A program made the translations under genes and the position numbers. From the NCBI RefSeq assembly GCF_001650715.1, contig NZ_LWQT01000109.1, positions 124,001 to 188,000 on the forward strand: a DNA stretch of 64,000 nt, read 5' to 3'. The notes beneath the pieces were generated by a model. That model had not been told where the DNA came from. It did not search any database and was given only the letters and a program-made list of their open reading frames with translations. This DNA is from Paramagnetospirillum marisnigri (GTDB lineage: Bacteria; Pseudomonadota; Alphaproteobacteria; Rhodospirillales; Magnetospirillaceae). Positions 3,301 through 23,827 of this stretch are shown piece after piece (the stretch's first letter is position 1; every line of letters begins with the position of its first letter).

Positions 3301-3509
3301 CGGAATATCGCGACAATCTGTTCAGTCTGTTCCGCCGCCTGACCCCGACCGACCAGACCGGCGGCACTGGCACCGGCCTGGCGCAGTGCCGTCGCATTGT
3401 CGAGGATCTGGGCGGGCGCATCTGGATCGAGGGCAACCCCCAAGGCGGCACCACGGTGAAATTCACCCTGCCCCGCCCCGCCAGTCCTCCTATCCCGCCT
3501 TCAGCGTGA
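381..3509 (+). CDS. Soluble multi-PAS/GAF sensor histidine kinase
   Basis: This 1042-residue protein has no membrane segment, so it is probably a cytoplasmic sensor. From N to C: four PAS domains (about 15-130, 135-255, 262-378, 385-500), a GAF domain (about 515-670) and a fifth PAS (about 685-800). Then come a HisKA-type helix with AAHDLQEPT (phospho-acceptor His823) and an ATPase domain with NLLSNALKFRR (N box), DNGVGIP (G1) and GGTGTGLAQCRRIVE (G2). PAS5 carries four clustered cysteines (726, 728, 737, 740), which could bind a metal or sense redox. No response regulator adjoins it. The start at 381 is the first in-frame ATG; ATG 387 is an alternative. Its 3' end overlaps the convergent alpha-E gene by 9 bp. 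Confidence 0.9.
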   Translation: MRMAEMSQPFRRSSDILGIERFFELSSDLLCVVDAQGYFQRLSNSWNQLLGFELKELIGQAFMDLVHPDDRAATLIAMDRQLTGRRIINFTNRYRTRSGDYRYLSWRSTPTEDDGLIFAVARDVTDEVRQQRRLSDDQVRLRAIMDTIPDLVFIKNSTFRYTGCNKPFEEFIGHTEQELIGRDDFQIFPPDVAQFFRSHDIAMFQSGQARRNEEWVTYPDGHRVLLDTLKVPFRDSQGGLLGLLGISRDITDQAQLRGEVQFLGALVERCRDPIYAISPSRGFILTHANDAICELLGLAKPEVIGQPVSRFDPTMSPERREEIWGDIQSSDTPVVVHTDLLRSDGQMVPVEISASRANHDGEDFIVGSIRDVTLRREIERRLLEREAFYRASIEATSDGFWLVAADGRILDVNSAYAHQSGYSIEELRTMRVPDLEAIETPGETWNRIELIRQNKSLTFESQHRRKDGSIWDVEVNTVYSDIEGGRMFAFLRDLRRRRRADTLLKTRLHLSEAGRTGDVDRLMTEVLDAAERLTASTIGFFHFVDADQQTLTLQAWSSNTLAHMCSAEGKGLHYPIMEAGVWAECLRQGKPLIYNDYAILPNKRGMPAGHAPVNRMLTVPIAGDQGFTAVIGVGNKAEDYDQDDLDITSELAVIAMDIVNWVRSEQAQRDMARELAQTARHWSVAMDGFQGGIAVIDGDQRLLRANSAFFALTESSQSRLGKRLHCLCERDTSSPDCPLCEFLAKRETAQMVLESDSCGNPSGRPLELRLVPTRDPAGQIDSLVLSLYDLSQSREQERQIQHTIGELTSSNAELERFAQVAAHDLQEPTRRQVLFAQLLKRRLGDNLDEETSSYLDFIIRDALKMRDMVRDLAAYSETFRSAEMVESLDLDEILDDVRWSLASELSATGGEISGGGLGVVRGQRAKLHLLLLNLLSNALKFRRPGIAPAISLGAVSDHGMALLALSDNGVGIPAEYRDNLFSLFRRLTPTDQTGGTGTGLAQCRRIVEDLGGRIWIEGNPQGGTTVKFTLPRPASPPIPPSA

Positions 3510-4448
3510 GGTGCAGAAGGTCTGGTGGATTTCGGCGAAGATCAGGATCAGGTGCTGCTGAATCCAGTCGATGAATTCGTGCAGGCCGTGGTTGATCACG
3601 TCGTCGATGCTGCGTTCGGTCAGCGACGCGCGCAATTCGTCCAGCAGTTCCAGCGCCCTGGCGCCGCCCCGCAGGGAATAGCGGGTCCGCAGCTGGGTCA
3701 GCAGCCAGTCCATCTGACGCACGCACAGAATCACCGAGCGCGGGAACGAATCCGAGAACAGCAGGAAGGCCGCCACCGATCGCGGCGTGATGGAGCCCAG
3801 CAATACCCGGCGCGAGGCCTGATAGCCCGCCGCCGCCTTCAGCAGCGCGTTCCAATGGCTGGTGTCCAGCGCCGAGCCCACATCCTCGGGCCGGGGCAGC
3901 AGGGTGTGATACTTGATGTCCAGCAGCCGGGTGGTCTGATCGGCGCGCTCCAGCGCCTTGCCCAGCATGTAGAAATAATGCGCCTGATCGCGGTAGAAGG
4001 TGCCCTCGGTAATGCCCGCATGCAGCTGGCAGGCCTCCTTGATCTCGGTGCACAGCGCGTTCAGATTGGCCTGGGCCGTCGCATTGTCGCTCAGGGATGA
4101 CATCCAGCTGGTCATGCGGTTGAGCTGACGCCACATCTCGATGGAGATCAGCGGCCGCAAGCTGCGCGCGTTCTCGCGCGCCGAGCGCAGCGACGAGATG
4201 ATCGAGGTCGGATTGTCGCGGTCAAGCACATAGAAATGGGGCACTGTGCGGGCATCGGCCACCCGGTGACGGGCGAAGAAGCGTTCCTCGTCGGCGTTGA
4301 TCTGCACCACCGGCAGCCAGTTGCGCCCGGCCCGGTCGCGGGCGAAGGTCTCGGCCACCCCTAGGATACGGGCCAGATTCTCGATCCGCTCCATGTAGCG
4401 GGCCAGCCAGATGATACTGCCGGCATTGCGGGCGAGAAGTTCGCTCAT
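3501..4448 (-). CDS. Alpha-E (DUF403) protein, amidoligase locus A
   Basis: The 315-residue, largely helical protein starts with LARNAGSIIWLARYMERIENLAR, the N-terminal signature of the alpha-E domain (PF04168). In this family alpha-E proteins are encoded next to circularly permuted ATP-grasp enzymes and transglutaminases. Comparative genomics has proposed that they act together to make or attach peptides; no reaction is proven here. The start codon overlaps the stop of the upstream ATP-grasp gene by 4 bp (ATGA), so the two are translationally coupled. Paralogues in this window lie at 21280-22221 and fused in the C-terminal part of the protein at 9414-11999. Confidence 0.92.
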   Translation of the reverse strand: MSELLARNAGSIIWLARYMERIENLARILGVAETFARDRAGRNWLPVVQINADEERFFARHRVADARTVPHFYVLDRDNPTSIISSLRSARENARSLRPLISIEMWRQLNRMTSWMSSLSDNATAQANLNALCTEIKEACQLHAGITEGTFYRDQAHYFYMLGKALERADQTTRLLDIKYHTLLPRPEDVGSALDTSHWNALLKAAAGYQASRRVLLGSITPRSVAAFLLFSDSFPRSVILCVRQMDWLLTQLRTRYSLRGGARALELLDELRASLTERSIDDVINHGLHEFIDWIQQHLILIFAEIHQTFCTSR

Positions 4449-5917
4449 GATCTTTCCTCCAGCACCCAGGTATCCTTGGAGCCGCCCCCCTGGGACGAAT
4501 TGACCACCAGCGATCCCTCCTTCAGCGCTACCCGGGTCAGGCCGCCCGACAGCACCGAGGTCCGCGCCCCGGTCACCGCGAAGGGGCGCAAATCCACATG
4601 GCGCGGCTGGACTCCCATGTCGGTCAGGGTCGGACTGACAGACAGGCCGATCATGGGCTGGCTGATGTAATTGGCGGGATCAGCCTTCAACTTGGCCCTG
4701 AACTCGTCACGCTCGGACTGGCTCGCCCTTGGCCCGATGATCATGCCGTAACCACCTGATTCTCCAACAGGTTTAACCACAAGCTCATCCAGATTCTCAA
4801 GGGTGTAATCCAGGCCTTCCTTCTCACGGCAGATGAAGGTCTCCACATTGGGCAGGATGGCCTCCTCGCCCAAATAGTATTTCACGATACGCGGCATATA
4901 GGCATAGACCGCCTTGTCGTCGGCGACGCCGGTTCCCGGTGCGTTGGCAATGGCCACATTGCCCTTGCGGTAGGCGTCCATCAGTCCGGGCACCCCCAAC
5001 ATGGAATCGGGGCGGAAGACCTTGGGGTCCAGGAAGGCATCATCGATGCGGCGATAGATGCAATCCACCGGAGCCCGTCCGGCGGTGGTCAGCATGTAGA
5101 CCCGGTCGTTTTCCACCACCAGGTCGCGGCCCTCCACCAGCGGCACCCCCATCTCGCGCGCCAGGAACACATGCTCGAAGAAGGCCGAGTTGAAGATTCC
5201 CGGCGACAACAGCACGATGCGGGGCTCGTCCACGCCCACGGGCGAAATCTCCTCCAGGGCCCGGCGCAGCATCAGGCCGTAATTGTCCACCGGCCGCACC
5301 CCGATGCCTTCCATCAGGTCGGGGAAGGACTGCAGCATCAGATTGCGGTTTTCCACCACATAGGACACGCCCGACGGCGTGCGGGCATTGTCTTCCAGCA
5401 CCCGGAACTCGCCTTGCTGATCCCGGATCAGGTCGATGCCGCAAACATGGGAATAGGCGCCACAGGGAACCTTCAGGTCACGCATGAACTCGTGGTAGTT
5501 GGCGTTGCCCAGGACCAGATCGGCAGGCACCACCTTGTCGGCCAGGATGCGCCGCCCATGATAGAGATCGTCCAGGAACAGGTTGATGGCGGTGACCCGC
5601 TGGATGATGCCGGCTTCCAGGCGCTGCCATTCCGAGGCGGTGATCACCCGGGGCATCACGTCGAACGGCAGGATACGGTCGATGGCGTCCTTGTCCGAAT
5701 AGACGGTGAAGGTGATGCCAAGGTCGAACAGCTCCTTCTCCGCCGCCGCCAGGCGCAGACGCAAGGAATCCTCGTCCAACCCGTCCAGTCGCTGGTAAAG
5801 CGCTGCAAGCTCGGCATGGCCGTCGGGGCGAAAAGAGGTCATCTCACAGAAATACGGACCCCGATCATAGCGCGCCAACAGGCCCTGGATGGGCGGGGCT
5901 CCCTGTTCCTGCTGCAT
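4445..5917 (-). CDS. Circularly permuted ATP-grasp amidoligase-like protein, locus A
   Basis: The protein has 490 residues, normal for the circularly permuted ATP-grasp family (DUF404/DUF407). Visible family motifs are LEDNARTPSGVSY near residue 175, the nucleotide-binding stretch VVKPVGESGGYGM near 382, and VNSSQGGGSKDTW close to the C-terminus. Members are predicted to form amide bonds using ATP. The ATG at 5917 has GGGAGA about eight bases upstream. It is the first gene of a two-gene operon with alpha-E and diverges from the transglutaminase operon at 6088. The paralogue at 22202-23659 keeps the same motifs. A shared 11-mer lies upstream of both genes. Confidence 0.92.
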   Translation of the reverse strand: MQQEQGAPPIQGLLARYDRGPYFCEMTSFRPDGHAELAALYQRLDGLDEDSLRLRLAAAEKELFDLGITFTVYSDKDAIDRILPFDVMPRVITASEWQRLEAGIIQRVTAINLFLDDLYHGRRILADKVVPADLVLGNANYHEFMRDLKVPCGAYSHVCGIDLIRDQQGEFRVLEDNARTPSGVSYVVENRNLMLQSFPDLMEGIGVRPVDNYGLMLRRALEEISPVGVDEPRIVLLSPGIFNSAFFEHVFLAREMGVPLVEGRDLVVENDRVYMLTTAGRAPVDCIYRRIDDAFLDPKVFRPDSMLGVPGLMDAYRKGNVAIANAPGTGVADDKAVYAYMPRIVKYYLGEEAILPNVETFICREKEGLDYTLENLDELVVKPVGESGGYGMIIGPRASQSERDEFRAKLKADPANYISQPMIGLSVSPTLTDMGVQPRHVDLRPFAVTGARTSVLSGGLTRVALKEGSLVVNSSQGGGSKDTWVLEERS

Positions 5918-5969
5918 CGCCTAGTCTCCCTGACGGTATCAAACGTATCGAGGGTAGCACCCGGCAGGG

Positions 5970-5980
5970 ATTTGTTCAAA
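5970..5980. promoter_or_regulatory. ATTTGTTCAAA motif in the divergent amidoligase promoter region
   Basis: The 11-mer ATTTGTTCAAA lies 53 bp upstream of the ATP-grasp start at 5917. The same 11-mer occurs at 23758-23768, upstream of the paralogous ATP-grasp operon. Its core, TTTG-TT-CAAA, is a small palindrome. Read on the minus strand it also contains TTGAAC, followed after 17 bases by TACCCT, a weak sigma-70-like pair. It could be a shared operator or a -35 element. Confidence 0.35.
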
Positions 5981-6087
5981 TTCCAGGCAGCGGTGCAGCC
6001 ATGCCGGAATCCAAGGCTTTTTTGACGGCGGGATGCCTATGCTTGTGCTACCCTTTCAGCCCATTTCGCCCAGGAACCGATGAACCG

Positions 6088-9000
6088 ATGGCCATCAACG
6101 TCAAGCTCAGGCACACCACCCGCTACCGCTACGATCGTCCCGTCACCCTGTCGCCCCAGGTGGTTCGGCTGCGCCCCGCCCCCCATTCGCGCACGCCGGT
6201 CCTGTCCTATTCCCTGGATATCGAGCCCAAGACCCATTTCATCAACTGGCAGCAGGACCCCCAGGGCAATTGGCTGGCGCGGCTGGTGTTTCCGGAAAAG
6301 GTCAATGGGTTCACGGTGGATGTGGACCTTGTGGCCGACATGTCCATCGTCAATCCCTTCGACTTCTTCCTGGAGCCCGAGTCAGAGCATTTCCCCTTTT
6401 CCTACGACAAGGGGCTCGACCACGAGCTGAAGCCGTTCCTGCTGTGCGAGGAAGCCGGGCCGAAGCTGCGGGATTATGTCGCTTCCATCGATATTTCCAA
6501 GCCGACCCAGACCACCAATTTCCTGGTGGCGCTGAACCAGCGCCTGCAATCGGATATCAGCTACACCATCCGCATGGAACCGGGCGTCCAGACGCCGGAG
6601 CAGACCCTGACCCTGCGAAGCGGCTCGTGTCGCGATTCCGCCTGGCTGCTGGTGCAGATCCTGCGCCGCCTGGGCCTCGCCGCCCGTTTCGTTTCGGGCT
6701 ACCTGATCCAGTTGGTTCCCGACGTCAAGGCGCTGGACGGCCCCACCGGGGCCGAGCACGATTTCACCGATCTGCACGCCTGGACCGAGGTCTATCTGCC
6801 CGGCGCCGGCTGGATCGGCCTTGACCCCACCTCGGGCCTGCTGACCGGCGAGGGGCATATCCCCCTGGCGGCCTCGCCCGATCCCACCAGCGCCGCCCCC
6901 ATCACCGGCGCGGTGGAGATGTGCGAAGTCACCTTCGAGCATCACATGGACGTCACCAGGGTCCTGGAAACGCCCCGCGTCACCAAGCCCTATACCGAGG
7001 AGCAATGGCAGGCGGTCCTGTCCCTGGGCGAGGTGGTGGACCAGCATCTGGCCAAGGGCGATGTGCGCCTGACCCAGGGCGGCGAACCCACCTTCGTGTC
7101 CACCGAGGACATGGATGGCGAGGAGTGGAATACCTCCGCCGTCGGCCCCACCAAGCGCACCTATGCCGACACCCTGATCCGCCGCCTGCGCGACCGCTAT
7201 GCTCCCGGCGCCCTGATCGCCTATGGCCAGGGCAAGTGGTATCCCGGCGAAAGCCTGCCACGCTGGGCCTTTTCCCTGATCTGGCGCGAGGATGACGAGG
7301 CGGTCTGGCGCAATCCCGAACTGATCGCCCTGGAAAAGGACGACCACCAGCCGACCCACGAACAGGCCCGCGACTTCTCCATGGCGCTGACCCGGCATCT
7401 GGGGGTGGATTCCGCCTTCGCCCTGCCCGCCTGGGAAGACCCCGCCTATTACCTGCTGCGGGAACAGGCCCTTCCCATCAATGTGGATCCCATCGACAGC
7501 AAGCTGGAAAATCCCGAGGAACGCGCCCGGCTGGCCCAGGTGTTCCGCCGCGGCCTCGGCACGCCCACCGGCTATGTGCTGCCGTTGCAGCCCTGGCAGG
7601 CCAAGGACACCTTCCGCTGGATCACCGGCCCCTGGCCCACCCGCGACGGCAAGCTGATCACCATTCCCGGCGATTCGCCGCTGGGCTTCCGGCTGCCGCT
7701 GGAATCGCTGCCGTGGATTCCGTCCGACGACTATCCCTATCACAATGAACGCGACCCCTTCGAGCCGCGCCCCTATCTGCCGCCGCCCAAGCGCCGCCAG
7801 ACCACCCAGACCGAGCGGGTGCCCGGCTCCGGCGCCGCCAAGGGCGTGGTGACCCAGCAGGTGCCGGTGGACCTGCGCCCGCGCGAGACCGCCAACGGCT
7901 TGGTGTCGGAGAATGTGCGCACCGCGCTGTGCGTCCAACCCCGCGACGGCCGCATCAACGTCTTCCTGCCGCCGGTGGAAACCGCCGAGCAGTATCTGGA
8001 CCTGATCGACGCGGTCGAATGCGCCGCCGCCGAAGTGGGAACCCCGGTGCATGTGGAAGGCTATCCGCCGCCCAACGATCCCCGCCTGAAGATCATCAAG
8101 ATCACGCCCGATCCCGGCGTCATCGAGGTCAACGTCAACCCGGTGGACAACTGGCGCGACCTGGTGGAAACCACCGAGACCCTGTACCAGGAAGCCCACC
8201 AGACCCGCCTGGGCACCGAGAAATTCATGGTCGATGGCCGCCATGTGGGAACCGGCGGCGGCAATCACATGGTGCTGGGCGGCTGGACCCCCGCCGACAG
8301 CCCCTTCCTGCGCCGCCCCGACCTGCTGGGCAGCCTGATCCGCTTCTGGCAGAACCACCCGGCGCTGTCATACCTGTTCTCGGGCCTGTTCATCGGCCCC
8401 ACCAGCCAGCATCCCCGCGTCGACGAGGCCCGCGACGATACCCTGTACGAGTTGGAGATTGCGCTCAGCCAGTTGCCGCCGCCCGGCACCAATGTGGCGC
8501 CCTGGGTGGTGGACCGGGTCTTGCGCAACGTGCTGATCGACGCCTCGGGCAATACCCACCGCACCGAGCTGTGCATCGACAAGCTGTATTCTCCCGATGG
8601 CCCCACCGGACGGCTGGGGCTGGTGGAATTCCGCGCCTTCGAGATGCCGCCCCATCCCCGCATGAGCCTGGTGCAGCAATTGCTGCTGCGCGCCCTGGTG
8701 GCCCGGTTCTGGGAAGACCCCTATACAGAGAAGCTGATCCGCTTCGGGTCGAGCTTGCGCGACCGCTTCATGCTGCCCCACTGGGTCGAGAAGGATTTCG
8801 ACACGGTGCTGGAATGGCTGCGGGCAGGCGGCTACGACTTCGACCGCGCCTGGTTCGCCCCCCATCTGGAATTCCGCTTCCCCATGATCGGCGCCATCAC
8901 CCATCACGGCATCCGCCTGGAACTGCGCAATGCGCTGGAGCCCTGGCATGTCATGGGCGAGGAGCCCGGCGCGGGCGGTACCGTCCGCTATGTGGATTCC

Positions 9001-9417
9001 TCGGTGGAGCGGGTCCAGGTCAAGGTCTCCAACCTGGAAGGCGACCGCTACGTCGTCACCTGCAACGGCCGTCCGGTGCCCCTGGCCCCCACCGGCATCC
9101 GTGGCGAGCTGGTGGCGGGGGTACGCTATCGCGCCTGGGCACCCGCGTCTTGCCTGCATCCCACCATCGGCATCCATACGCCGCTGCTGTTCGATCTGGT
9201 CGACACCTGGACCGGCCAGGCGGTGGCGGGCTGCACCTACCACGTCGCCCATCCCGGTGGGCGCAGCTATGACAGCTTCCCGGTCAACTCCTACGAGGCC
9301 GAGGCCCGCAGGCGGGCCAGATTCTTCCCCTTCGGCCATACCCATGGTCCGATCAGGGTGGACGGGCCGGTGATTCATCCCGATTATCCCAATACCCTGG
9401 ATCTGAGACTGCAGTGA
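6088..9417 (+). CDS. Transglutaminase-like protein with DUF2126 C-terminal region
   Basis: The 1109-residue protein begins with a bacterial transglutaminase N-domain (KLRHTTRYRYDRPVTLSPQ). The papain-like core follows: catalytic Cys181 in LRSGSCRDSAW, then HAWTEVYLPGAGW and DPTSGL supplying the His and Asp. The rest, from about residue 320, matches the large DUF2126 region usually fused to this enzyme type. Such proteins are probably amidases or peptidases paired with ATP-grasp ligases. The ATG at 6088 was chosen over an upstream frame extension because AGGAA sits about 9 bases before it and the domain starts there. The gene overlaps the next by 4 bp. Confidence 0.92.
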   Translation: MAINVKLRHTTRYRYDRPVTLSPQVVRLRPAPHSRTPVLSYSLDIEPKTHFINWQQDPQGNWLARLVFPEKVNGFTVDVDLVADMSIVNPFDFFLEPESEHFPFSYDKGLDHELKPFLLCEEAGPKLRDYVASIDISKPTQTTNFLVALNQRLQSDISYTIRMEPGVQTPEQTLTLRSGSCRDSAWLLVQILRRLGLAARFVSGYLIQLVPDVKALDGPTGAEHDFTDLHAWTEVYLPGAGWIGLDPTSGLLTGEGHIPLAASPDPTSAAPITGAVEMCEVTFEHHMDVTRVLETPRVTKPYTEEQWQAVLSLGEVVDQHLAKGDVRLTQGGEPTFVSTEDMDGEEWNTSAVGPTKRTYADTLIRRLRDRYAPGALIAYGQGKWYPGESLPRWAFSLIWREDDEAVWRNPELIALEKDDHQPTHEQARDFSMALTRHLGVDSAFALPAWEDPAYYLLREQALPINVDPIDSKLENPEERARLAQVFRRGLGTPTGYVLPLQPWQAKDTFRWITGPWPTRDGKLITIPGDSPLGFRLPLESLPWIPSDDYPYHNERDPFEPRPYLPPPKRRQTTQTERVPGSGAAKGVVTQQVPVDLRPRETANGLVSENVRTALCVQPRDGRINVFLPPVETAEQYLDLIDAVECAAAEVGTPVHVEGYPPPNDPRLKIIKITPDPGVIEVNVNPVDNWRDLVETTETLYQEAHQTRLGTEKFMVDGRHVGTGGGNHMVLGGWTPADSPFLRRPDLLGSLIRFWQNHPALSYLFSGLFIGPTSQHPRVDEARDDTLYELEIALSQLPPPGTNVAPWVVDRVLRNVLIDASGNTHRTELCIDKLYSPDGPTGRLGLVEFRAFEMPPHPRMSLVQQLLLRALVARFWEDPYTEKLIRFGSSLRDRFMLPHWVEKDFDTVLEWLRAGGYDFDRAWFAPHLEFRFPMIGAITHHGIRLELRNALEPWHVMGEEPGAGGTVRYVDSSVERVQVKVSNLEGDRYVVTCNGRPVPLAPTGIRGELVAGVRYRAWAPASCLHPTIGIHTPLLFDLVDTWTGQAVAGCTYHVAHPGGRSYDSFPVNSYEAEARRRARFFPFGHTHGPIRVDGPVIHPDYPNTLDLRLQ

Positions 9418-11999
9418 AGGACGCCCAGGTGGTGCTGGAGGGGGAGGCGAAGATACAACGGCGACTGAAGATCCGGCAGGGCAACCCGACGGTGTCGCTC
9501 CAAAGCGTCTATCGGCCGCTTCCCGGCACCTATGACGAGGTGCTGGGCGAGGACGGCGAGATTCGCCCCCATTGGCGGCAATTCACCGAAGGGCTGATGC
9601 GCTTCGAGCCCGAGGAGATGCGCCGACGCTGGGACATGGGGCAGCGTCTGCTGCGCGACAACGGCGTCACCTACAATGTGTATGGCGACCCCGAGGGACT
9701 GGACCGCCCGTGGCGGCTGGACCCCTTGCCGGTGGTGCTGTCGCAAGACGAATGGCACATGATCGCCGCCGGAATCGAGCAGCGCGCCACCCTTCTCGAA
9801 ACCATCCTGTCCGACCTTTACGGCAAGCGCACCCTGCTGTCGCGCGGCCTGATCCCGTCCTCGCTGCTGCACGCCAATCCAGGGTTCCTGAGGCCCTGCC
9901 ATGGCTGGCTGCCCGCCGGCAAGCGCCGCATGCATGTCTATGCCGCCGATCTGGCCCGTGGCAGCAACGGGCATTGGCGGGTGGTGGGCGACCGCACCGA
10001 AAGCCCCTCGGGCTCGGGCTATGCCCTGGAAAACCGCTCCATCGTCAGCCGCGTCCTGCCCGAGCTTCACCGCTCGCTGCAGGTGGAACGTCTGGGGCCG
10101 TTCTTCGATACCCTGCGCCGCCAGTTGCAGATGCTGTCGCCCCGGCACAAGGACGACCCCCGCGTCGTGCTGCTGACCCCCGGCCCCTACAACGCCACCT
10201 ATTTCGAGCATGCCTTCCTGGCACGGCAATTGGGCATCACCCTGGTCCAGGGCGAGGACCTGACCGTGCGCGACAACAATGTCTACCTCAAGGCCCTGAC
10301 CGGCTTGCAGCGGGTCGACGTGATCTTCCGCCGCACCGGCGGCGTCTGGTGTGATCCGCTGGAACTGCGCGGCGATTCCACCTTGGGGGTGGCGGGCCTG
10401 CTGCAATCGGCCCGGGCGGGCAATGTCGCCCTGGCCAACGCGGTGGGCACCGGCCTGCTGGATGGCGCCTCGCTCATGGGCTTCCTGCCCGCCCTGGCCC
10501 GCGACCTGCTGGGCGAGCAACTGGCCCTGCCCTCGGTGGCGACATGGTGGTGCGGCGAGCCCGAGTCCTGTCGCCATGTGCTGGCCAATCTGGAACGGCT
10601 GATCATCCGCCCCGCCTTCGCCAATCGCGACCAGCCGGTGGTGGGTTCGGCCCTCACCGAATCCGAGGCCAATTCCCTGCGCACCGCCATCGCGGCCCAT
10701 CCCTGGGACTGGGTGGCGCAGGAGATCGAGGGCACCTCCACCGTACCGGTCTGGACTGGCGGCCATCTGGAGCCGCAGCATTGCGTGCTGCGCGTCTTCG
10801 CGGTGGCCACCGAACGCGGCTGGCAGGCCCTGCCCGGTGGTCTGGCCCGCCTGTCGGCCGAGCGCGAATTGCTGACCACCCGCCTGCAGGCTGGCGGCGG
10901 CGGCAGCAAGGATATCTGGATCGCCGCCGGTCGGCGTGATCTTCAGACACCGGCCAAGCTGCGGGCCCCGGCGGTCCGCCTGACCCGTGACAACCGCGAC
11001 CTGCCGTCGCGGGTGGCCGACAACATGTTCTGGCTGGGCCGCTATCTCGAGCGCTGCGAGGCCACCACCCGGCTGCTGCGCGCCGCGCTGGGCCATATGG
11101 AGGACAGCCTGGCCCAGGACGATGGCGAGCAGGCCCGCGCCACCTTGCACACCATGGGCCTGCTGGGCATGGAGATGCCCGCCGACATCCTGGAAGAGGA
11201 TAACCCCGAGAATCTGCCCTACCGCCTGACCCAGTTCCATGTGGATGAGTCCACCACCGGCCTGGCTAATTCCGTGGACAGGCTGATCCGGGTGGTGACC
11301 AATCTGCGCGACCGCTTGTCCACCGACACCTGGCGCGCGGTGCAGCGGCTGCGGGACGAGGTCGGCCTGCTGGAGGCCGAAAGCCTGGATGGCGACATCA
11401 TCGGGCGACTGAATTCGGTGGTGCTGACCATGCAGGGCATCAGCGGCCTGGCCATGGAGAACATGACCCGGGGGCCGCAATGGCTGTTCCTGGATTCGGG
11501 CCGCCGCCTGGAACGCGCCATCGCCATCGTCGACAATCTGAGCGGCGCCCTGACCGATGTGGAGAGCGAGGACGCCATCGCCCTGGACCTGTTGCTGGAA
11601 ATCTGGGACAGCGTCATGACCTACCGCTCCCGCTATCTGGCCTCGCCCCGTCTGGCGGGCGTGCTGGACCTGCTGCTGTGCGACGAAAGCAATCCGCGTT
11701 CGCTGGGCTTCCAGGTCGGCACCTTGTCGCGCCATGTGGACAGCTTGGCCGGCATCGGCGAGGACAGCGGCTTCTACAAGCCGGAACAGAAACTGATGAC
11801 CATCCTGTCGGGCACCATCCGCACCACCGATGTCACCGTCCTGGCCCGCTACGAGCGCGACGCGGGCTATCACGACGCCGAGCGGCTGCTGGATTTCCTG
11901 CGGTCGCGACTTTGGGAACTGTCCGAGCAGCTCTCGCGCAGCTACTTCACCCATGCCCAGTGGCGCCTGCCGGTGGCCCGCATGGAGGTGATGCCGTGA
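9414..11999 (+). CDS. ATP-grasp/alpha-E fusion protein with a diverged nucleotide site
   Basis: This 861-residue protein joins a circularly permuted ATP-grasp region (about 20-500) to an alpha-E domain (from about 530, starting RVADNMFWLGRYLERCEATT). The start is GTG at 9414, overlapping the previous stop as GTGA. Relative to the two stand-alone ATP-grasp paralogues, the conserved VVKP...GSGGYGM stretch reads IIRPAFANRDQPVVG here. The Lys and the glycine loop are therefore changed. The LEDNARTPSG motif is also altered, to GDRTESPSGSGY. The C-terminal GGGGSKDIW is kept. The fusion shows that the two domains work together. Whether this copy still binds ATP is doubtful. Confidence 0.9.
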   Translation: MKDAQVVLEGEAKIQRRLKIRQGNPTVSLQSVYRPLPGTYDEVLGEDGEIRPHWRQFTEGLMRFEPEEMRRRWDMGQRLLRDNGVTYNVYGDPEGLDRPWRLDPLPVVLSQDEWHMIAAGIEQRATLLETILSDLYGKRTLLSRGLIPSSLLHANPGFLRPCHGWLPAGKRRMHVYAADLARGSNGHWRVVGDRTESPSGSGYALENRSIVSRVLPELHRSLQVERLGPFFDTLRRQLQMLSPRHKDDPRVVLLTPGPYNATYFEHAFLARQLGITLVQGEDLTVRDNNVYLKALTGLQRVDVIFRRTGGVWCDPLELRGDSTLGVAGLLQSARAGNVALANAVGTGLLDGASLMGFLPALARDLLGEQLALPSVATWWCGEPESCRHVLANLERLIIRPAFANRDQPVVGSALTESEANSLRTAIAAHPWDWVAQEIEGTSTVPVWTGGHLEPQHCVLRVFAVATERGWQALPGGLARLSAERELLTTRLQAGGGGSKDIWIAAGRRDLQTPAKLRAPAVRLTRDNRDLPSRVADNMFWLGRYLERCEATTRLLRAALGHMEDSLAQDDGEQARATLHTMGLLGMEMPADILEEDNPENLPYRLTQFHVDESTTGLANSVDRLIRVVTNLRDRLSTDTWRAVQRLRDEVGLLEAESLDGDIIGRLNSVVLTMQGISGLAMENMTRGPQWLFLDSGRRLERAIAIVDNLSGALTDVESEDAIALDLLLEIWDSVMTYRSRYLASPRLAGVLDLLLCDESNPRSLGFQVGTLSRHVDSLAGIGEDSGFYKPEQKLMTILSGTIRTTDVTVLARYERDAGYHDAERLLDFLRSRLWELSEQLSRSYFTHAQWRLPVARMEVMP

Positions 12000-12874
12000 A
12001 ATACCGCGTCCGCCACCTCACCACCTATCGCTATACCGAGCCGGTACAGTTGTCCCACCACGCCGCCCATCTGCGCCCGCGCGAGGTGCCGGGGCAGCAG
12101 GTGGGCAAGGTCAGCGTCTCCATCCGCCCCGAACCGGCGGTTCTGCATGATGGCGGCCAGGATTATTTCGGTAATCCCACCACCTTCTTCACGATCCAGG
12201 ACCCCCATTCAACCTTGCAGATCGATGCCTGTTTCGAGGTGGAAACCAGCAGCCAGCCCCCCCTGCCCCAGATCGCGGTACCGGCCTGGGACGACATCCG
12301 GCTGGATACCTGGCCCGGCGGGCGCGGCCTGGACGAATCGGTGATGGATTTCGTCTTCGCCTCGCCCCAGGTGCCCATGCTGGCCGAGGCGACGGAATAC
12401 GCCCTGCCCAGTTTCCCGCCCGGCCGCCCCCTGACCGAGGCGGTGATGGACCTGATCGGGCGCATCCACGAAGACTTCACCTTCGACCCCGAGGCCACCA
12501 GCGTCGGCACGCCGCTGTTGGCCGTGTTCGAGGATCGGCGCGGCGTCTGCCAGGACTTCGCCCATGTGGGCATCGCCTGTGTCCGGGCCATGGGGCTGGC
12601 GGCGCGCTATGTCAGCGGCTATATCCGCACCATCGCGCCGCCGGGCAAGGAAAAGCTGGTGGGCGCCGACGCCTCCCATGCCTGGCTGTCGGTCTATCAG
12701 CCCGGCTGGGGCTGGCTGGATGTCGATCCCACCAACAATATCGCGGCGGGCCACGACCATGTGGTGGTGGCCTGGGGCCGCGACTATGACGATGTCAGCC
12801 CGCTGCGCGGCGTGGTGCTGGGCGGCGGCGACCACCAGGTGCACGTCGCCGTGGACGTCATCGAGATGGTGTAG
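11996..12874 (+). CDS. Transglutaminase family protein, last gene of amidoligase locus A
   Basis: The 292-residue protein starts at a GTG that overlaps the stop of the fusion gene by 4 bp. The N-domain is recognised from VKYRVRHLTTYRYTEPVQLS. The catalytic core has Cys185 in RRGVCQDFAHVG, then LAARYVSGYIRT, SHAWLSVYQPGWGW and DVDPTNN, so Cys-His-Asp are all present. No signal peptide or membrane segment is visible. In this gene family the transglutaminase fold usually hydrolyses or transfers amide bonds, which fits a partner that reverses or finishes the ligase reaction. The convergent nifW gene ends 11 bp downstream. Confidence 0.9.
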   Translation: MKYRVRHLTTYRYTEPVQLSHHAAHLRPREVPGQQVGKVSVSIRPEPAVLHDGGQDYFGNPTTFFTIQDPHSTLQIDACFEVETSSQPPLPQIAVPAWDDIRLDTWPGGRGLDESVMDFVFASPQVPMLAEATEYALPSFPPGRPLTEAVMDLIGRIHEDFTFDPEATSVGTPLLAVFEDRRGVCQDFAHVGIACVRAMGLAARYVSGYIRTIAPPGKEKLVGADASHAWLSVYQPGWGWLDVDPTNNIAAGHDHVVVAWGRDYDDVSPLRGVVLGGGDHQVHVAVDVIEMV

Positions 12875-14796: not shown

Positions 14797-14840
14797 GACG
14801 GCATCCTCCTTGAGGTAACTGAAACCCTGCCCTATTGCTG

Positions 14841-14856
14841 AGCAAGGAAGATGCCA
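14841..14856 (-). promoter_or_regulatory. Sigma-54 (-24/-12) promoter for the iscA-type gene, nifV and nifW
   Basis: On the minus strand the sequence is TGGCATC-TTCC-TTGCT, with GG and GC ten bases apart as RpoN requires. The expected start site is about 34 bp before the first codon at 14796. An exact NifA site lies 61 bp upstream of the -24 end. Confidence 0.85.
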
Positions 14857-19572: not shown

Positions 19573-19588
19573 CGCAAACGTCGTGCCA
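19573..19588 (-). promoter_or_regulatory. Sigma-54 promoter of nifE
   Basis: The minus strand reads TGGCACG-ACGT-TTGCG, an almost ideal -24/-12 element. The predicted transcript starts about 25 bp before the nifE ATG at 19537. Confidence 0.9.
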
Positions 19589-19638: not shown

Positions 19639-19654
19639 TGTCGTATGTCCGACA
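19639..19654. promoter_or_regulatory. NifA upstream activator site for nifE
   Basis: TGT-CGTATGTCCG-ACA matches TGT-N10-ACA exactly, 51 bp upstream of the nifE -24 element. It ends one base from the stop codon of the Anbu gene. Confidence 0.85.
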
Positions 19655-19655
19655 T

Positions 19656-20405
19656 TCAATCCTTCGTCGGATTCAGCACCCATTCCGGCTCGGGCAGCTG
19701 CGAGAAGATCTTGCGCAGACCTTCGCCCCAGGTGCGCCGCAACGACTTGAAATAAGGGTCCTCGTCGGTGACGCGATAGCGGATGGAGGCGCGGCAACCA
19801 TCGGCCGGAACCACGACCACATCGATGGGCAGCGCCACTGAGATGTTGCTTTTGATGGTGGAGTCGAAGGACACCAGGGCGCATTTCACCGCCTCTTCCA
19901 GCGAGGTCTCGGGCGTGATCACCCGCTCGATGATGGGCTTGCCGTATTTGGTCTCGCCGATCTGGAAATAGGGGGTTTCGTCGGTGGCCTCGATGAAATT
20001 GCCTGCCGCATAGACGTTGAACAACCGCATGCGGCGATCCTTGATCTGTCCGCCGACGATCAGCGACGCCACGAAGTCGGCGCCGTGGCTCTTGAGATGG
20101 GCGCCGTCCATCTCGAACACCTCGCGCAGGGTCTGGCCGACCATGCGGGCCACGTCATACATGGACTTGGCCTTGTACAGGCTGCGGCTGGCCGCCTTGG
20201 ACCCCAGCCGCTCCTCCAGCAGGCTGATCACCGACTGGGTGATGGCCAGATTACCCGCCGTCAGGATGACGATCACCCGGTCGGGGGCACCGTCGAAGAC
20301 GAAGCTCTTGCGGAAGGTGGCAACGCTGTCCACCCCGGCATTGGTTCGGGAATCCGAGACGAACACCATTCCGGCCTTCAGGCGCATGCCCAGGCAATAG
20401 CTCAT
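19656..20405 (-). CDS. Anbu proteasome-type peptidase
   Basis: The 249-residue protein has the Anbu (ancestral beta-subunit) signature MSYCLGMRLKAG, then SDSRTNAGVDS, and a beta-sandwich Ntn-hydrolase pattern with ILTAGNLAITQS. Family members self-assemble and may use the residue after the initiator Met (Ser2 here) as N-terminal nucleophile; that is not settled. Anbu genes are known to co-occur with circularly permuted ATP-grasp, alpha-E and transglutaminase genes, exactly as here. It is last in the operon that begins at 23659, about 59 bp after the transglutaminase gene. The nifE control region begins at its stop codon. Confidence 0.93.
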   Translation of the reverse strand: MSYCLGMRLKAGMVFVSDSRTNAGVDSVATFRKSFVFDGAPDRVIVILTAGNLAITQSVISLLEERLGSKAASRSLYKAKSMYDVARMVGQTLREVFEMDGAHLKSHGADFVASLIVGGQIKDRRMRLFNVYAAGNFIEATDETPYFQIGETKYGKPIIERVITPETSLEEAVKCALVSFDSTIKSNISVALPIDVVVVPADGCRASIRYRVTDEDPYFKSLRRTWGEGLRKIFSQLPEPEWVLNPTKD

Positions 20406-20464
20406 TCTATGTCCCCCCTCAATTGCCGGGCGGCGAATTGGAGCGCGGGCGCCCCCGCCCCCCC

Positions 20465-21283
20465 CTATTGCTGCGACTGCGACTGGGACTGCACCTGCTC
20501 CACCGACAGATCGACCGAGAGGTCCTCGCCCTTGCCGCCCGAACGCAGTCCCACCACCGGCGCCGCCCCGGCATAATCGAAGCCGACGGCAAGCCGGACA
20601 TAGGCATCGGTGGCCGACTGGCAATTGGCCGGGTCGAAGCTGACCCAGCCCAGCCCCTCGACGAAGGCCTCGGCCCAGGCATGGCTGGCCATCTCGGAGC
20701 GCTCGGAATGGAGATAGCCCGAGACATAGCGCGCGGGCAATCCCAGCACCCGGCAACAAGCGATGAACAGATGGGCGTGGTCCTGGCAGACCCCCTTGCC
20801 CGATGCCAAGGCCTCGGCCGCCGTACTGGTGACGTCGGTGGAGCCGGTGGCATAGACCACCCTCTCGGCGATGGCGCCGGTCATCTGGTGCAGGGTCGGA
20901 ACCGTGCCGGTGCCGACACAGGACGCGGCGAAGGGCTTGGCTAGGTCGCGAATGGCGTCATCCGCCAGGGTCAGCGGCGTCGGACGCAGGAACATGGGCG
21001 GCGGCAGGCCGTCATCCAGGGGCAGGATGCCCCAGGTGTCGTTGGTCTCGATCTCGCCCTCCACCAGGATGGTCAGGGCGTCATGGGCTTCGACCTCGCT
21101 GGCCACATGGGCGCGGTTGCCGAAGCCATCGGTCCAGGGCACCAGGCTGGGCGGCCCCGATACCGACCAGGACAGCACCCGCTGGCAGCGGTCCTGGCGC
21201 GGCGTCAGACGCAGATACTGAACGGCGCGGCGGGCGGGTTCCGCCAGCCGATAGCGGGTCTCGTGGCGAATGCGCAGTCTCAT
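20465..21283 (-). CDS. Transglutaminase family protein of the Anbu operon
   Basis: The 272-residue protein starts MRLRIRHETRYRLAEPA (transglutaminase N-domain). It keeps Cys166 in GKGVCQDHAHLF, then LPARYVSGYLHS, SHAWAEAFVEGLGW and DPANCQS, so the Cys-His-Asp set is complete. The C-terminus ends in a short Ser-Gln repeat. The ATG at 21283 overlaps the alpha-E stop by 4 bp. It is likely to act with the ATP-grasp and alpha-E partners on the same product. Confidence 0.92.
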   Translation of the reverse strand: MRLRIRHETRYRLAEPARRAVQYLRLTPRQDRCQRVLSWSVSGPPSLVPWTDGFGNRAHVASEVEAHDALTILVEGEIETNDTWGILPLDDGLPPPMFLRPTPLTLADDAIRDLAKPFAASCVGTGTVPTLHQMTGAIAERVVYATGSTDVTSTAAEALASGKGVCQDHAHLFIACCRVLGLPARYVSGYLHSERSEMASHAWAEAFVEGLGWVSFDPANCQSATDAYVRLAVGFDYAGAAPVVGLRSGGKGEDLSVDLSVEQVQSQSQSQQ

Positions 21284-22221
21284 GGCACCATCATGAATTC
21301 GGTTTGAAGCACGTTGGACAGGTCCGCCACCTCGTCGATGACGCCGCCCAGGAATACGTCGAGGCCGGTGCGCATCAGGTCGCCCACCTGGGCCGAGCCG
21401 ATACGGTGGCGCAGCAGCCGCGCCCGCTTCAGCGAGCCCTCTCCCGCCTCGAGTTTCTCCAGTCCCAGGATGATCTCGTCGGCCACCGCCGCCAGCGAAC
21501 GCGGCATATCGGGACGCAGCAGCAGCAGGTCGGCAATGCGGTGAACCTGCAGGTTGTCGGCATAGATCTCGCGATAGGCCTTGTGGGCCGACAGCGCGTC
21601 CAGCAGCACCATGCGCCGGTAATAGGCGTTGGCATCGTGCTGGCCCGCGCTGTAGTCCGAGCCCTGCAGCGACGGCCATTTCACCCGCAACAGACGGGCG
21701 GTGGCATCGGCGCGCTCGATGGCGCCGCCCAGGCGGGCGAACCAGAAGGCCTCGCCCCGGCGCATGGAACCGTACAGGCAACCCCGGAAGACATGCGAGC
21801 GGGTCCGCACCCATTCCAGATGGGTGACGATGCCCTGGCGCTGGAGGTCCTTCCAGCCCAGATCGGCGACACCGAGCCAGGTCTGGTTGAGCCCCTCCCA
21901 CAGATCGGTGGTCAGCATGTGCCGCGTGGCGCGCGCATTCTCGCGGGCATTGCCCAGGGACGCCTTGATGCTGACCGGGTTGTTGCGCCCCAGGATGGCA
22001 TAGGAGAGAACGCGGCCCTCGGTCACCGCCTCGTTCTCCTCGCGGAATGCCTCGTAGCGGCCGGTCACCAGCAGCGGCGTATGCCAGTCCGACAGCCGCT
22101 GCTCGCCGGTGGCGGGCAACAGGGCGCTGCGCAAGCTGGCGTCCAGCAGCCGGGCCAGGGCTTCCGCCCGCTCCACATAGCGGGCCATCCAGAAAATGTT
22201 ATTAGCGGCGCGCGCGAGCAT
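21280..22221 (-). CDS. Alpha-E (DUF403) protein of the Anbu operon
   Basis: The 313-residue helical protein begins MLARAANNIFWMARYVERAE, the alpha-E signature. The start at 22221 was preferred to an in-frame ATG at 22242 because AGGAGG lies six bases before it. It overlaps the end of the ATP-grasp gene by about 20 bp. In size and motifs it resembles the alpha-E protein at 3501-4448. Confidence 0.92.
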   Translation of the reverse strand: MLARAANNIFWMARYVERAEALARLLDASLRSALLPATGEQRLSDWHTPLLVTGRYEAFREENEAVTEGRVLSYAILGRNNPVSIKASLGNARENARATRHMLTTDLWEGLNQTWLGVADLGWKDLQRQGIVTHLEWVRTRSHVFRGCLYGSMRRGEAFWFARLGGAIERADATARLLRVKWPSLQGSDYSAGQHDANAYYRRMVLLDALSAHKAYREIYADNLQVHRIADLLLLRPDMPRSLAAVADEIILGLEKLEAGEGSLKRARLLRHRIGSAQVGDLMRTGLDVFLGGVIDEVADLSNVLQTEFMMVP

Positions 22222-23659
22222 GGCCAGCCTCCTTGCCAGCATCTTCCAGCACCCAGGTATCCTTGGTGCCGCCGCCCTGGGACGAATTTACCACCAGCGA
22301 GCCCTCGCGCATGGCGACGCGGGTCAAACCGCCCGGCACCACCACCGTTTCCCGTCCGGTCAGGACATAGGGCCGCAAATCCACATGGCGGGGCGCGATG
22401 CCCTTGTCGACGAAGGTCGGCACCGTGGACAGGGACAGGGTCGGCTGGGCGATGAAGCTTTCCGGCGAGGACTTGATCTTGGCCTTGAACTCGGCCAGTT
22501 CCGCCTTGGACGCCGCCGGTCCCACCAGCATGCCGTAACCGCCCGAGCCATGGACCTCCTTGACCACCAGTTCCGGCAGATGGGCCAGGGCATAGGCCAG
22601 GTCGTCGGGCTTGCGCAACTGCCAGGTGGGCACGTTGGACAGGATCGGCTCCTCGCCCAGATAGAAGCGGATGAAGTCGGGCACATAGACATAGACCGAC
22701 TTGTCGTCGGCGACGCCGCCACCCACCGCGTTGCAGATGGTCACCTTCCCCAGGCGATAGGCCGCCAACAGGCCCGGCACTCCCAGCATGGAGCCGGGAT
22801 TGAAGGCCAGCGGGTCGAGGAAATCGTCATCGATGCGGCGATAGATCACATCCACCCGCCTTGGCCCCTTGGTGGTGCGCATATAGACGGTGGCGTCGTC
22901 CACATAGAGGTCGGAGCCCTCCACCAGATCGATTCCCATTTCCTGGGCCAGGAAGGCGTGCTCGAAATAGGCGCTGTTGTACTGGCCCGGAGTCATCAGA
23001 ACCACCTTGGGCTCGTCCACGCCCCCGGGCGCCACGGCGCGCAAGGTCTCCAGCAACAGTTCGGGATAGTGGTTGACCGGGGCGACGCGCTGGCTGGCGA
23101 ACAGCTCCGGGAACAGACGCATCATGGCCTGGCGGTTTTCCAGCATGTAGGAGACGCCGGACGGCGTGCGGGCGTTGTCCTCCAGCACGTAAAAGGTGTC
23201 CTCGTCGACACGGACCACGTCGATTCCCGCCACATGGGCATAGACCCGCTTGGGCACCTTCATGCCCAGCATCTGGGGGCAGAAGGCCTCGTTGGTCAGC
23301 ACCAGATCGGCGGGAATGATCCCGGCGCGCAGGATGTTCTGGTCGTTGTAGACGTCATCGAGAAAGGCATTGAGGGCGCGCACCCGCTGGCAGACGCCGA
23401 GCGCCACCTTGTCCCATTCGGCGGCCGCCAGGATGCGGGGCACGATGTCGAAGGGAATCAGACGCTCGACCCCACCCTCGGCGCCATAGACGTTAAAGGT
23501 GATGCCCGAGCGGCGGAATATGGAGTCGGCGGATTTGTGGCGGCGGTCCAACTCGTCGATGGACATGGCGTGCAGCCAATTTGAGTAGTCCGCATAGGGC
23601 GGGCGCATCTTGCCCCCCTTGCCATGCATCTCATCGAAGGCCGACTTCTTTCCCGACAT
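22202..23659 (-). CDS. Circularly permuted ATP-grasp amidoligase-like protein of the Anbu operon
   Basis: The 485-residue protein keeps all motifs of the locus A enzyme: FRRSGITFNVYG, LEDNARTPSGVSYM, VVKEVHGSGGYGM and VNSSQGGGTKDTW. It is predicted to be an ATP-dependent amide-bond-forming enzyme; substrate and product are unknown. A G-run plus GGAG precedes the ATG at 23659. It is the first gene of the ATP-grasp/alpha-E/transglutaminase/Anbu operon. A sigma-54 type element lies 47 bp upstream of the start. Confidence 0.93.
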   Translation of the reverse strand: MSGKKSAFDEMHGKGGKMRPPYADYSNWLHAMSIDELDRRHKSADSIFRRSGITFNVYGAEGGVERLIPFDIVPRILAAAEWDKVALGVCQRVRALNAFLDDVYNDQNILRAGIIPADLVLTNEAFCPQMLGMKVPKRVYAHVAGIDVVRVDEDTFYVLEDNARTPSGVSYMLENRQAMMRLFPELFASQRVAPVNHYPELLLETLRAVAPGGVDEPKVVLMTPGQYNSAYFEHAFLAQEMGIDLVEGSDLYVDDATVYMRTTKGPRRVDVIYRRIDDDFLDPLAFNPGSMLGVPGLLAAYRLGKVTICNAVGGGVADDKSVYVYVPDFIRFYLGEEPILSNVPTWQLRKPDDLAYALAHLPELVVKEVHGSGGYGMLVGPAASKAELAEFKAKIKSSPESFIAQPTLSLSTVPTFVDKGIAPRHVDLRPYVLTGRETVVVPGGLTRVAMREGSLVVNSSQGGGTKDTWVLEDAGKEAGHARARR

Positions 23660-23705
23660 CGGGCTCCCCCCCTAGGGTTATCCACATACTTATCTCTTAC
23701 CGCCT

Positions 23706-23721
23706 TGCAATGCCGAGGCCA
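23706..23721 (-). promoter_or_regulatory. Putative sigma-54 promoter of the Anbu/amidoligase operon
   Basis: On the minus strand the 16-mer is TGGCCTC-GGCA-TTGCA. It has GG and GC ten bases apart and differs from the nifB promoter (TGGCATC-GGCA-TTGCA at 33644-33659) at one base. The implied 5' leader is about 36 nt. No exact TGT-N10-ACA was found between it and nifK, so the activator could be NifA at a distance, NtrC or another protein. Confidence 0.6.
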
Positions 23722-23757
23722 AGGGGGCAGGCGGACATTCAACGGGCATAGAACTAA

Positions 23758-23768
23758 ATTTGTTCAAA
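23758..23768. promoter_or_regulatory. Second copy of the ATTTGTTCAAA motif
   Basis: This 11-mer equals the one at 5970-5980. It lies 37 bp upstream of the -24 end of the putative sigma-54 element, a place where a regulator could bind. It is embedded in an AT-rich tract that stands out from the GC-rich surroundings. Confidence 0.35.
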
Positions 23769-23797
23769 ATTTAATCAGACATGACCTTTGGAGAAGC

Positions 23798-23827
23798 AAA
23801 ACCCCCGGAGCGTTGCCGCTCCGGGGG
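23798..23827 (-). terminator. Intrinsic terminator after nifK
   Basis: CCCCCGGAGCG (23802-23812), loop TTGC and CGCTCCGGGGG (23817-23827) form an 11-base perfect stem. On the minus strand the hairpin is followed by TTTTGCTTC. It closes the nifHDK transcript before the Anbu operon promoter. Confidence 0.88.

Follow-up and report, generated by a model that had tools for sequence, protein, structure and literature searches.

The stretch of DNA analyzed here, a window of 64,000 nucleotides from contig NZ_LWQT01000109.1 of Paramagnetospirillum marisnigri, carries an intact Anbu operon on its minus strand (23659-19656), embedded in an island of nitrogen fixation (nif) genes. Pfam searches place all four genes of the operon on one strand and in the expected order: a circularly permuted ATP-grasp protein (CP_ATPgrasp), which is a putative amide or peptide ligase (22202-23659, minus strand, E-value 6e-165), an alpha-E protein (21280-22221, minus, 6e-73), a transglutaminase-like cysteine enzyme (20465-21283, minus, 1e-22), and Anbu itself, a predicted proteasome-like hydrolase of the N-terminal nucleophile (Ntn) type (19656-20405, minus, 1.7e-9 for the proteasome family). 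Upstream of the operon lie nifK (25408-23855, minus), nifD (27000-25489, minus) and nifH (27905-27015, minus), and downstream of it nifE, nifN and nifX, with the nif genes of both sides on the operon's strand. The first-pass annotation of this DNA, made from the letters alone, had described such an operon between nifENX and nifHDK, and both the domain matches and the coordinates bear it out.

At the protein level, residues 4-473 of the ATP-grasp protein, nearly its full length, match the solved chain 3n6x (E-value 9e-213), and the transglutaminase-like enzyme shows the motifs GVCQD, SHAW and FDPAN, in which the Cys, His and Asp are retained. Solved Anbu chains match a profile of the window Anbu and 11 relatives at 1e-88 to 1e-117. 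Published work names Thr1 as the nucleophile of Anbu, together with Asp17 and Lys32/33 (PMC6376114). The window Anbu retains the active-site Asp and Lys and has Ser at the Thr1 position; among 12 aligned Anbu proteins this residue is Thr in 10, the other Ser belonging to a relative (L033) whose gene stands without the three partner genes, an arrangement called solo below. The alpha-E protein is all-helical in the predicted structure model (predicted local distance difference test score, pLDDT, 88), and sequence and fold searches returned no convincing solved relative; an assignment of function from the fold was discarded, as the good model found a best PDB match of only E 0.43.

In front of the operon, a perfect match to the sigma-54 -24/-12 element, TGGCCTCGGCATTGC, occupies 23721-23707 on the minus strand, with the ATP-grasp gene as the first gene behind it. 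The end of the element is 47 bp from the ATP-grasp ATG and, when read over 16 bases, the element TGGCCTCGGCATTGCA is identical at 15 to its nifB counterpart TGGCATCGGCATTGCA, so that both the distance to the first codon and the one-base difference from the nifB promoter had been given correctly in the annotation. A sigma-54 match by itself is not rare, as the window holds 12 perfect TGGC-N7-TTGC sites against 3.7 expected from shuffling. What raises this putative promoter above chance is its position before the first gene and its conservation.

The conservation was followed in 187 Anbu loci, sorted into 95 with an upstream ATP-grasp gene (17 from the same family, 31 from a contig set and 47 from the rest of the class) and 92 without. 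The class and phylum loci comprise 80 fetched from 110 other class genomes with a match and 20 from 142 other phylum genomes, with overlapping lists, and two stretches are duplicated across the sets (L116 is the L042 stretch and L074 the L030 stretch). The promoter scan omitted four of the 95 operons with fewer than 100 bases upstream (L071, L087, L179 and L184), as well as 13 of the 92 solo loci with at most 3000 bases upstream, some of them at contig edges. Of the 17 other family operons, none of which is beside nif genes, 16 have the strict element GGC-N7-TTGC at a distance of 15-160 bp above the ATP-grasp match, as against a mean of 0.84 and a maximum of 4 after shuffling. The element is also present in 15 of 29 contig-set operons, mostly from Betaproteobacteria (shuffle 0.86), and in 10 of 45 from the rest of the class (shuffle 1.2). 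With a looser score, whose weights were our own choice after the sigma-54 consensus, these counts become 16, 21 and 12, respectively. In the phylum sample of 20 loci, ATP-grasp lies upstream in 11, five of which reach the sigma-54 score, as do five of nine family loci having ATP-grasp and alpha-E without Anbu. Upstream of other gene-like open reading frames (the longest ones in the same loci, as opposed to annotated genes), the strict element occurs in only 6/210 (family), 12/620 (contig set) and 7/308 (class) cases. The predicted promoter type is thus the Anbu operon's own and would not derive from nif. The claim of a sigma-54 promoter is borne out by this conservation, and the refuting condition set in the annotation, a GG-N10-GC that related genomes do not share, was checked and did not hold.

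The promoters of nifB, nifE and nifH in the same island share the -24/-12 sequence with the Anbu operon and, in addition, have exact NifA sites 47-91 bp above their elements, whereas the Anbu operon has none. Control by NifA through a standard upstream site was accordingly discarded: no exact TGT-N10-ACA lies between 19655 and 28086, which includes 4.3 kb upstream, for the exact consensus only. Because the promoter type is the operon's own and the exact NifA site is absent, the term 'nif-like' given to it earlier is misleading.

A weak NtrC-type box, TGATTAAATTTTGAACA, is found at 23761..23777 (minus strand), at a distance of 56 bp from where the sigma-54 element starts. It is the best match within 450 bp upstream for a matrix derived from glnB/glnK promoters only (p=0.047 against shuffles), which contains 12 of 15 distinct boxes, two far-upstream ones and one from L248 being left out, and no Anbu sequence. 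Of the 17 family operon promoters that have a sigma-54 site, the window's included, 16 reach p<0.05 with the same matrix. In 12 of 25 Anbu promoters of the family, a palindrome resembling TGCCC-N7-GGGCA begins 56-59 bp above the element; these are six of 17 operons (the window not among the six) and six of eight solo genes. The template for this palindrome came from known NtrC sites and a prior look at Anbu promoters, and is thus not fully independent. Before P-II genes (glnB/glnK) the pair of box and sigma-54 element occurs in eight of 26 loci from these genomes and their order, the scan having covered 26 of 29 matches, without three weak ones. The window genome encodes NtrC, which passes the curated cut-off and has the GAFTGA motif. 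Caulobacter glnBA and glnK have been reported as NtrC targets. In Rhodobacterales, NtrC is described as missing the GAFTGA loop, and that of Rhodobacter capsulatus as working with sigma-70 (PMC10274813). Elsewhere in the window, the top-scoring NtrC-type box (14828-14844) and a perfect sigma-54 element (14842-14856, minus strand) overlap at the edge of the latter.

The borders of the operon indicate how it sits in the nif island. On one side is the nifK terminator, a hairpin with a T run (23798..23827, minus strand), which alignment also finds in the nearest relative, where the site is empty; on the other, the NifA site of nifE (TGT-N10-ACA, 19639..19654) adjoins the anbu stop codon and is followed by the nifE sigma-54 element TGGCACGACGTTTGC (19574..19588, minus strand). 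In the nearest relative by nifK (G037), the nifK-nifE gap of 202 bp contains this terminator together with the promoter of nifE and its NifA site, whereas in the window the same features flank some 4.1 kb, and alignment to insert-free relatives places the insert at approximately 19655..23797. Among 14 nifK neighborhoods of the genus, three have nifE outside the stretch, and the remaining 11 have nifE next after nifK, across a gap of 0.2-2.3 kb without Anbu. The gap appears to accept cargo, since other relatives hold unrelated genes there, such as acetyltransferases in L064, L069 and L271. A mobile-element origin of the insert was rejected, the sole hint, a direct repeat of nine bases (GACATTCAA) close to each border (19651-19659 and 23734-23742), being too weak.

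Among the genomes examined, this arrangement is peculiar to that of the window. In 55 family genomes we found an Anbu match in 28, nifK in 45 and both in 25, and only in the window genome are the two less than 5 kb apart. Six others have them on one contig at distances from 46 kb to 1.4 Mb, and the remaining ones have them on separate contigs, some short, where closeness is not strictly excluded. A conserved linkage between nif and Anbu was likewise dismissed, as none of 222 loci (207 with Anbu) holds both within limited flanks, which in the class and phylum sets extend over about 6.5 kb on the upstream and 0.5 kb on the downstream side. Thus, in the genomes examined, the placement gives no support to a general conclusion.

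The solo genes suggest a history for the operon. In eight family genomes, six from the same genus and two from another one, no ATP-grasp, alpha-E or transglutaminase gene lies upstream of Anbu, and the sigma-54 element lies directly in front of Anbu in all seven that entered the promoter scan, and likewise in the eighth, L031. The tree joins the window Anbu, as sister, to four of the solo genes from its genus (support 100/99). The simplest history would be that the ancestor of the genus had the full operon and that several lines lost the three partners, keeping promoter and Anbu, while the window species kept all four genes at a new place. The gene adjoining Anbu in L032, without a Pfam match, is also present in L030, L031, L033 and L056, and L030, L032, L055 and L056 share, upstream of the solo Anbu, genes for a DUF192 protein, tRNA-Pro, a sensor kinase and a TRAP transporter. 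A search of the window genome for the L032-type neighbor gene did not find it, and its one DUF192 match (64% identity), beside tRNA-Pro, has no Anbu nearby. Solo Anbu is common in our material, in which 92 of 187 loci are without upstream ATP-grasp (a non-random sample with some contig edges and many cases in L083-L149 and L210-L227), as against a published description of Anbu as 'predominantly' found in a four-gene operon (PMC6376114). The seemingly truncated Anbu genes of G040 and G043 run into N stretches and were not called broken.

The window also contains a second amidoligase cluster (3501-12874), with alpha-E and ATP-grasp on the minus strand, divergent from a transglutaminase-DUF2126 gene, an ATP-grasp/alpha-E fusion and another transglutaminase. 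Its divergent promoter (5973-6018) has two NtrC-type boxes whose starts are 29 bp apart, a step repeated in four relatives (L268, L269, L270 and L272). A cluster of this second type lies about 2 Mb from nifK in G042, and similar transglutaminase and ATP-grasp genes are found about 3 kb from nif genes in G049 (L271). The solo genomes retain the paralogous second cluster, which might supply the partners of Anbu in trans.

We take COG3484 to be the COG of Anbu. A 2025 survey lists COG3484, as a proteasome-type protease, in the sigma-54 regulon of the alpha, beta and gamma classes (PMC12316311), and Anbu has been reported to be upregulated in nitrogen-limited Pseudomonas putida (PMC5666114, PMC6376114, PMC7801951). 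There, PP_2686-2688 rise 11-15 fold under nitrogen limitation in the wild type, which was assigned to NtrB/NtrC (PMC7801951). Like the window, P. putida has proteasome-like and transglutaminase genes in one operon (PP_2685-2688), whose induction there under nitrogen limitation is attributed to NtrB/NtrC; the available text mentions no nif island, and the induction survives rpoN mutation. In the case of Burkholderia cenocepacia, a cluster of ATP-grasp (DUF404/407), DUF403 (alpha-E) and transglutaminase-like genes (I35_5080-83) is a common target of NtrC and sigma-54, 6-9 fold down without ntrC; no Anbu is named in the portion available, and the cluster is closer to the second cluster of the window (PMC5491218). 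The gene content and order of the window operon are those of the YbAnbu operon of Yersinia bercovieri, whose ATP-grasp protein releases phosphate from ATP and whose Anbu is reported as showing no peptidase or amidase activity (PMC6376114). Among the matches listed for the open-licence literature we noticed no paper that places Anbu in a nif island, puts solo Anbu under NtrC control or describes the spacing of the box. Since nitrogen induction in P. putida and the appearance of COG3484 in the sigma-54 survey are already in print, the novelty is modest and lies in the box spacing, in the presence of this promoter type at Anbu genes without partners, and in the move into the nif island.

All together, we favor, with a probability of about 0.68, the reading that this is an ordinary Anbu operon with its own ancestral nitrogen regulation (Ntr) switch, made of NtrC and sigma-54, that was relocated into the nif island. 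Beyond the gene content, the candidate promoter element, its conservation and the insertion, which are established at the level of sequence, we infer that NtrC is the activator in this species and that the operon is induced. Phosphorylated NtrC, bound about 56 bp upstream, would activate sigma-54 RNA polymerase at TGGC-N7-TTGC. With its promoter, the whole operon would have entered the nifK-nifE gap, between the terminator of the former gene and the NifA site of the latter, so that it is expected to be switched on under nitrogen limitation alongside the nif genes and not through them. The annotation had proposed nitrogen limitation as the trigger on the grounds of placement and promoter; its guess is probably right for another reason, as promoter conservation, box analysis and, with exceptions, published expression agree with it, and the argument from placement does not stand.

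Several observations weigh against this reading. In P. putida, the rpoN mutant still induces PP_2686-2688 14-20 fold and the Anbu gene PP_2685 itself changes only 1.12 fold in the wild type (PMC7801951). The box in the window is degenerate, matching five of ten template positions with a p of only 0.047, and the P-II-box matrix reaches p<0.05 in only four of eight family solo, five of 21 contig-set and five of 12 class promoters. The strict sigma-54 site is absent from 35 of the 45 other class operons and from most other Alphaproteobacteria sampled, the family operon L046 has no element, and outside the family the element is little enriched, if at all, before solo Anbu genes (4/41 and 2/31, shuffle 0.8 and 0.9). 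The promoter of the second cluster, with its NtrC-type boxes, has no sigma-54 element reaching the score used. Finally, related sequences are non-independent, so that pooled probabilities are overstated.

A capture of the operon by the nif regulon, in which NifA drives the sigma-54 promoter and the degenerate NtrC box is a relic, would fit the position between nifHDK and nifENX, the near identity to the nifB promoter, nifA only 10 kb off, and a box that is weaker here than in most family operons away from nif. We consider it unlikely, as the exact NifA sites of nifE, nifB and nifH have no equivalent at the operon by the exact consensus and the same promoter type exists without any nif neighbor. 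Slightly less probable still is that the sigma-54 site is unused here, with expression of the operon being either constitutive or due to read-through from nifHDK: flanking nif genes do run in the same direction, a published text has Anbu constitutively expressed in moderate amounts, and the P. putida induction outlasted loss of rpoN, but the nifK terminator is retained and the element is conserved far above its frequency at other genes. As for an assembly error in this draft genome of 131 contigs, the arrangement is seen in one genome only; both junctions, however, are clean and deep within one 216-kb contig, with terminator and NifA site intact, and the genome has a completeness of 99.99 and a contamination of 0.48, which makes such an artefact very improbable.

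Regarding function, we tentatively suggest that ATP-grasp, together with alpha-E, might attach an amino acid or peptide to some substrate; during nitrogen starvation, the product might be trimmed or recycled by Anbu and the transglutaminase-like enzyme. As a long shot, the relocated operon may be passing from NtrC to NifA control, with products acting on nitrogenase or its assembly proteins, and Anbu with its nitrogen switch, kept elsewhere in the genus without partners beside it, may be the unit that selection preserves. Structures of Anbu have been solved, but the published work considered here gives neither a substrate nor a trigger. In this regard, the conserved nitrogen switch, retained by solo Anbu genes, points to nitrogen starvation as the place to look. 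The solo genes with the switch suggest that Anbu may act without ligase partners beside it, and the operon in the nif island would be a natural test of the importance of the system to diazotrophs.

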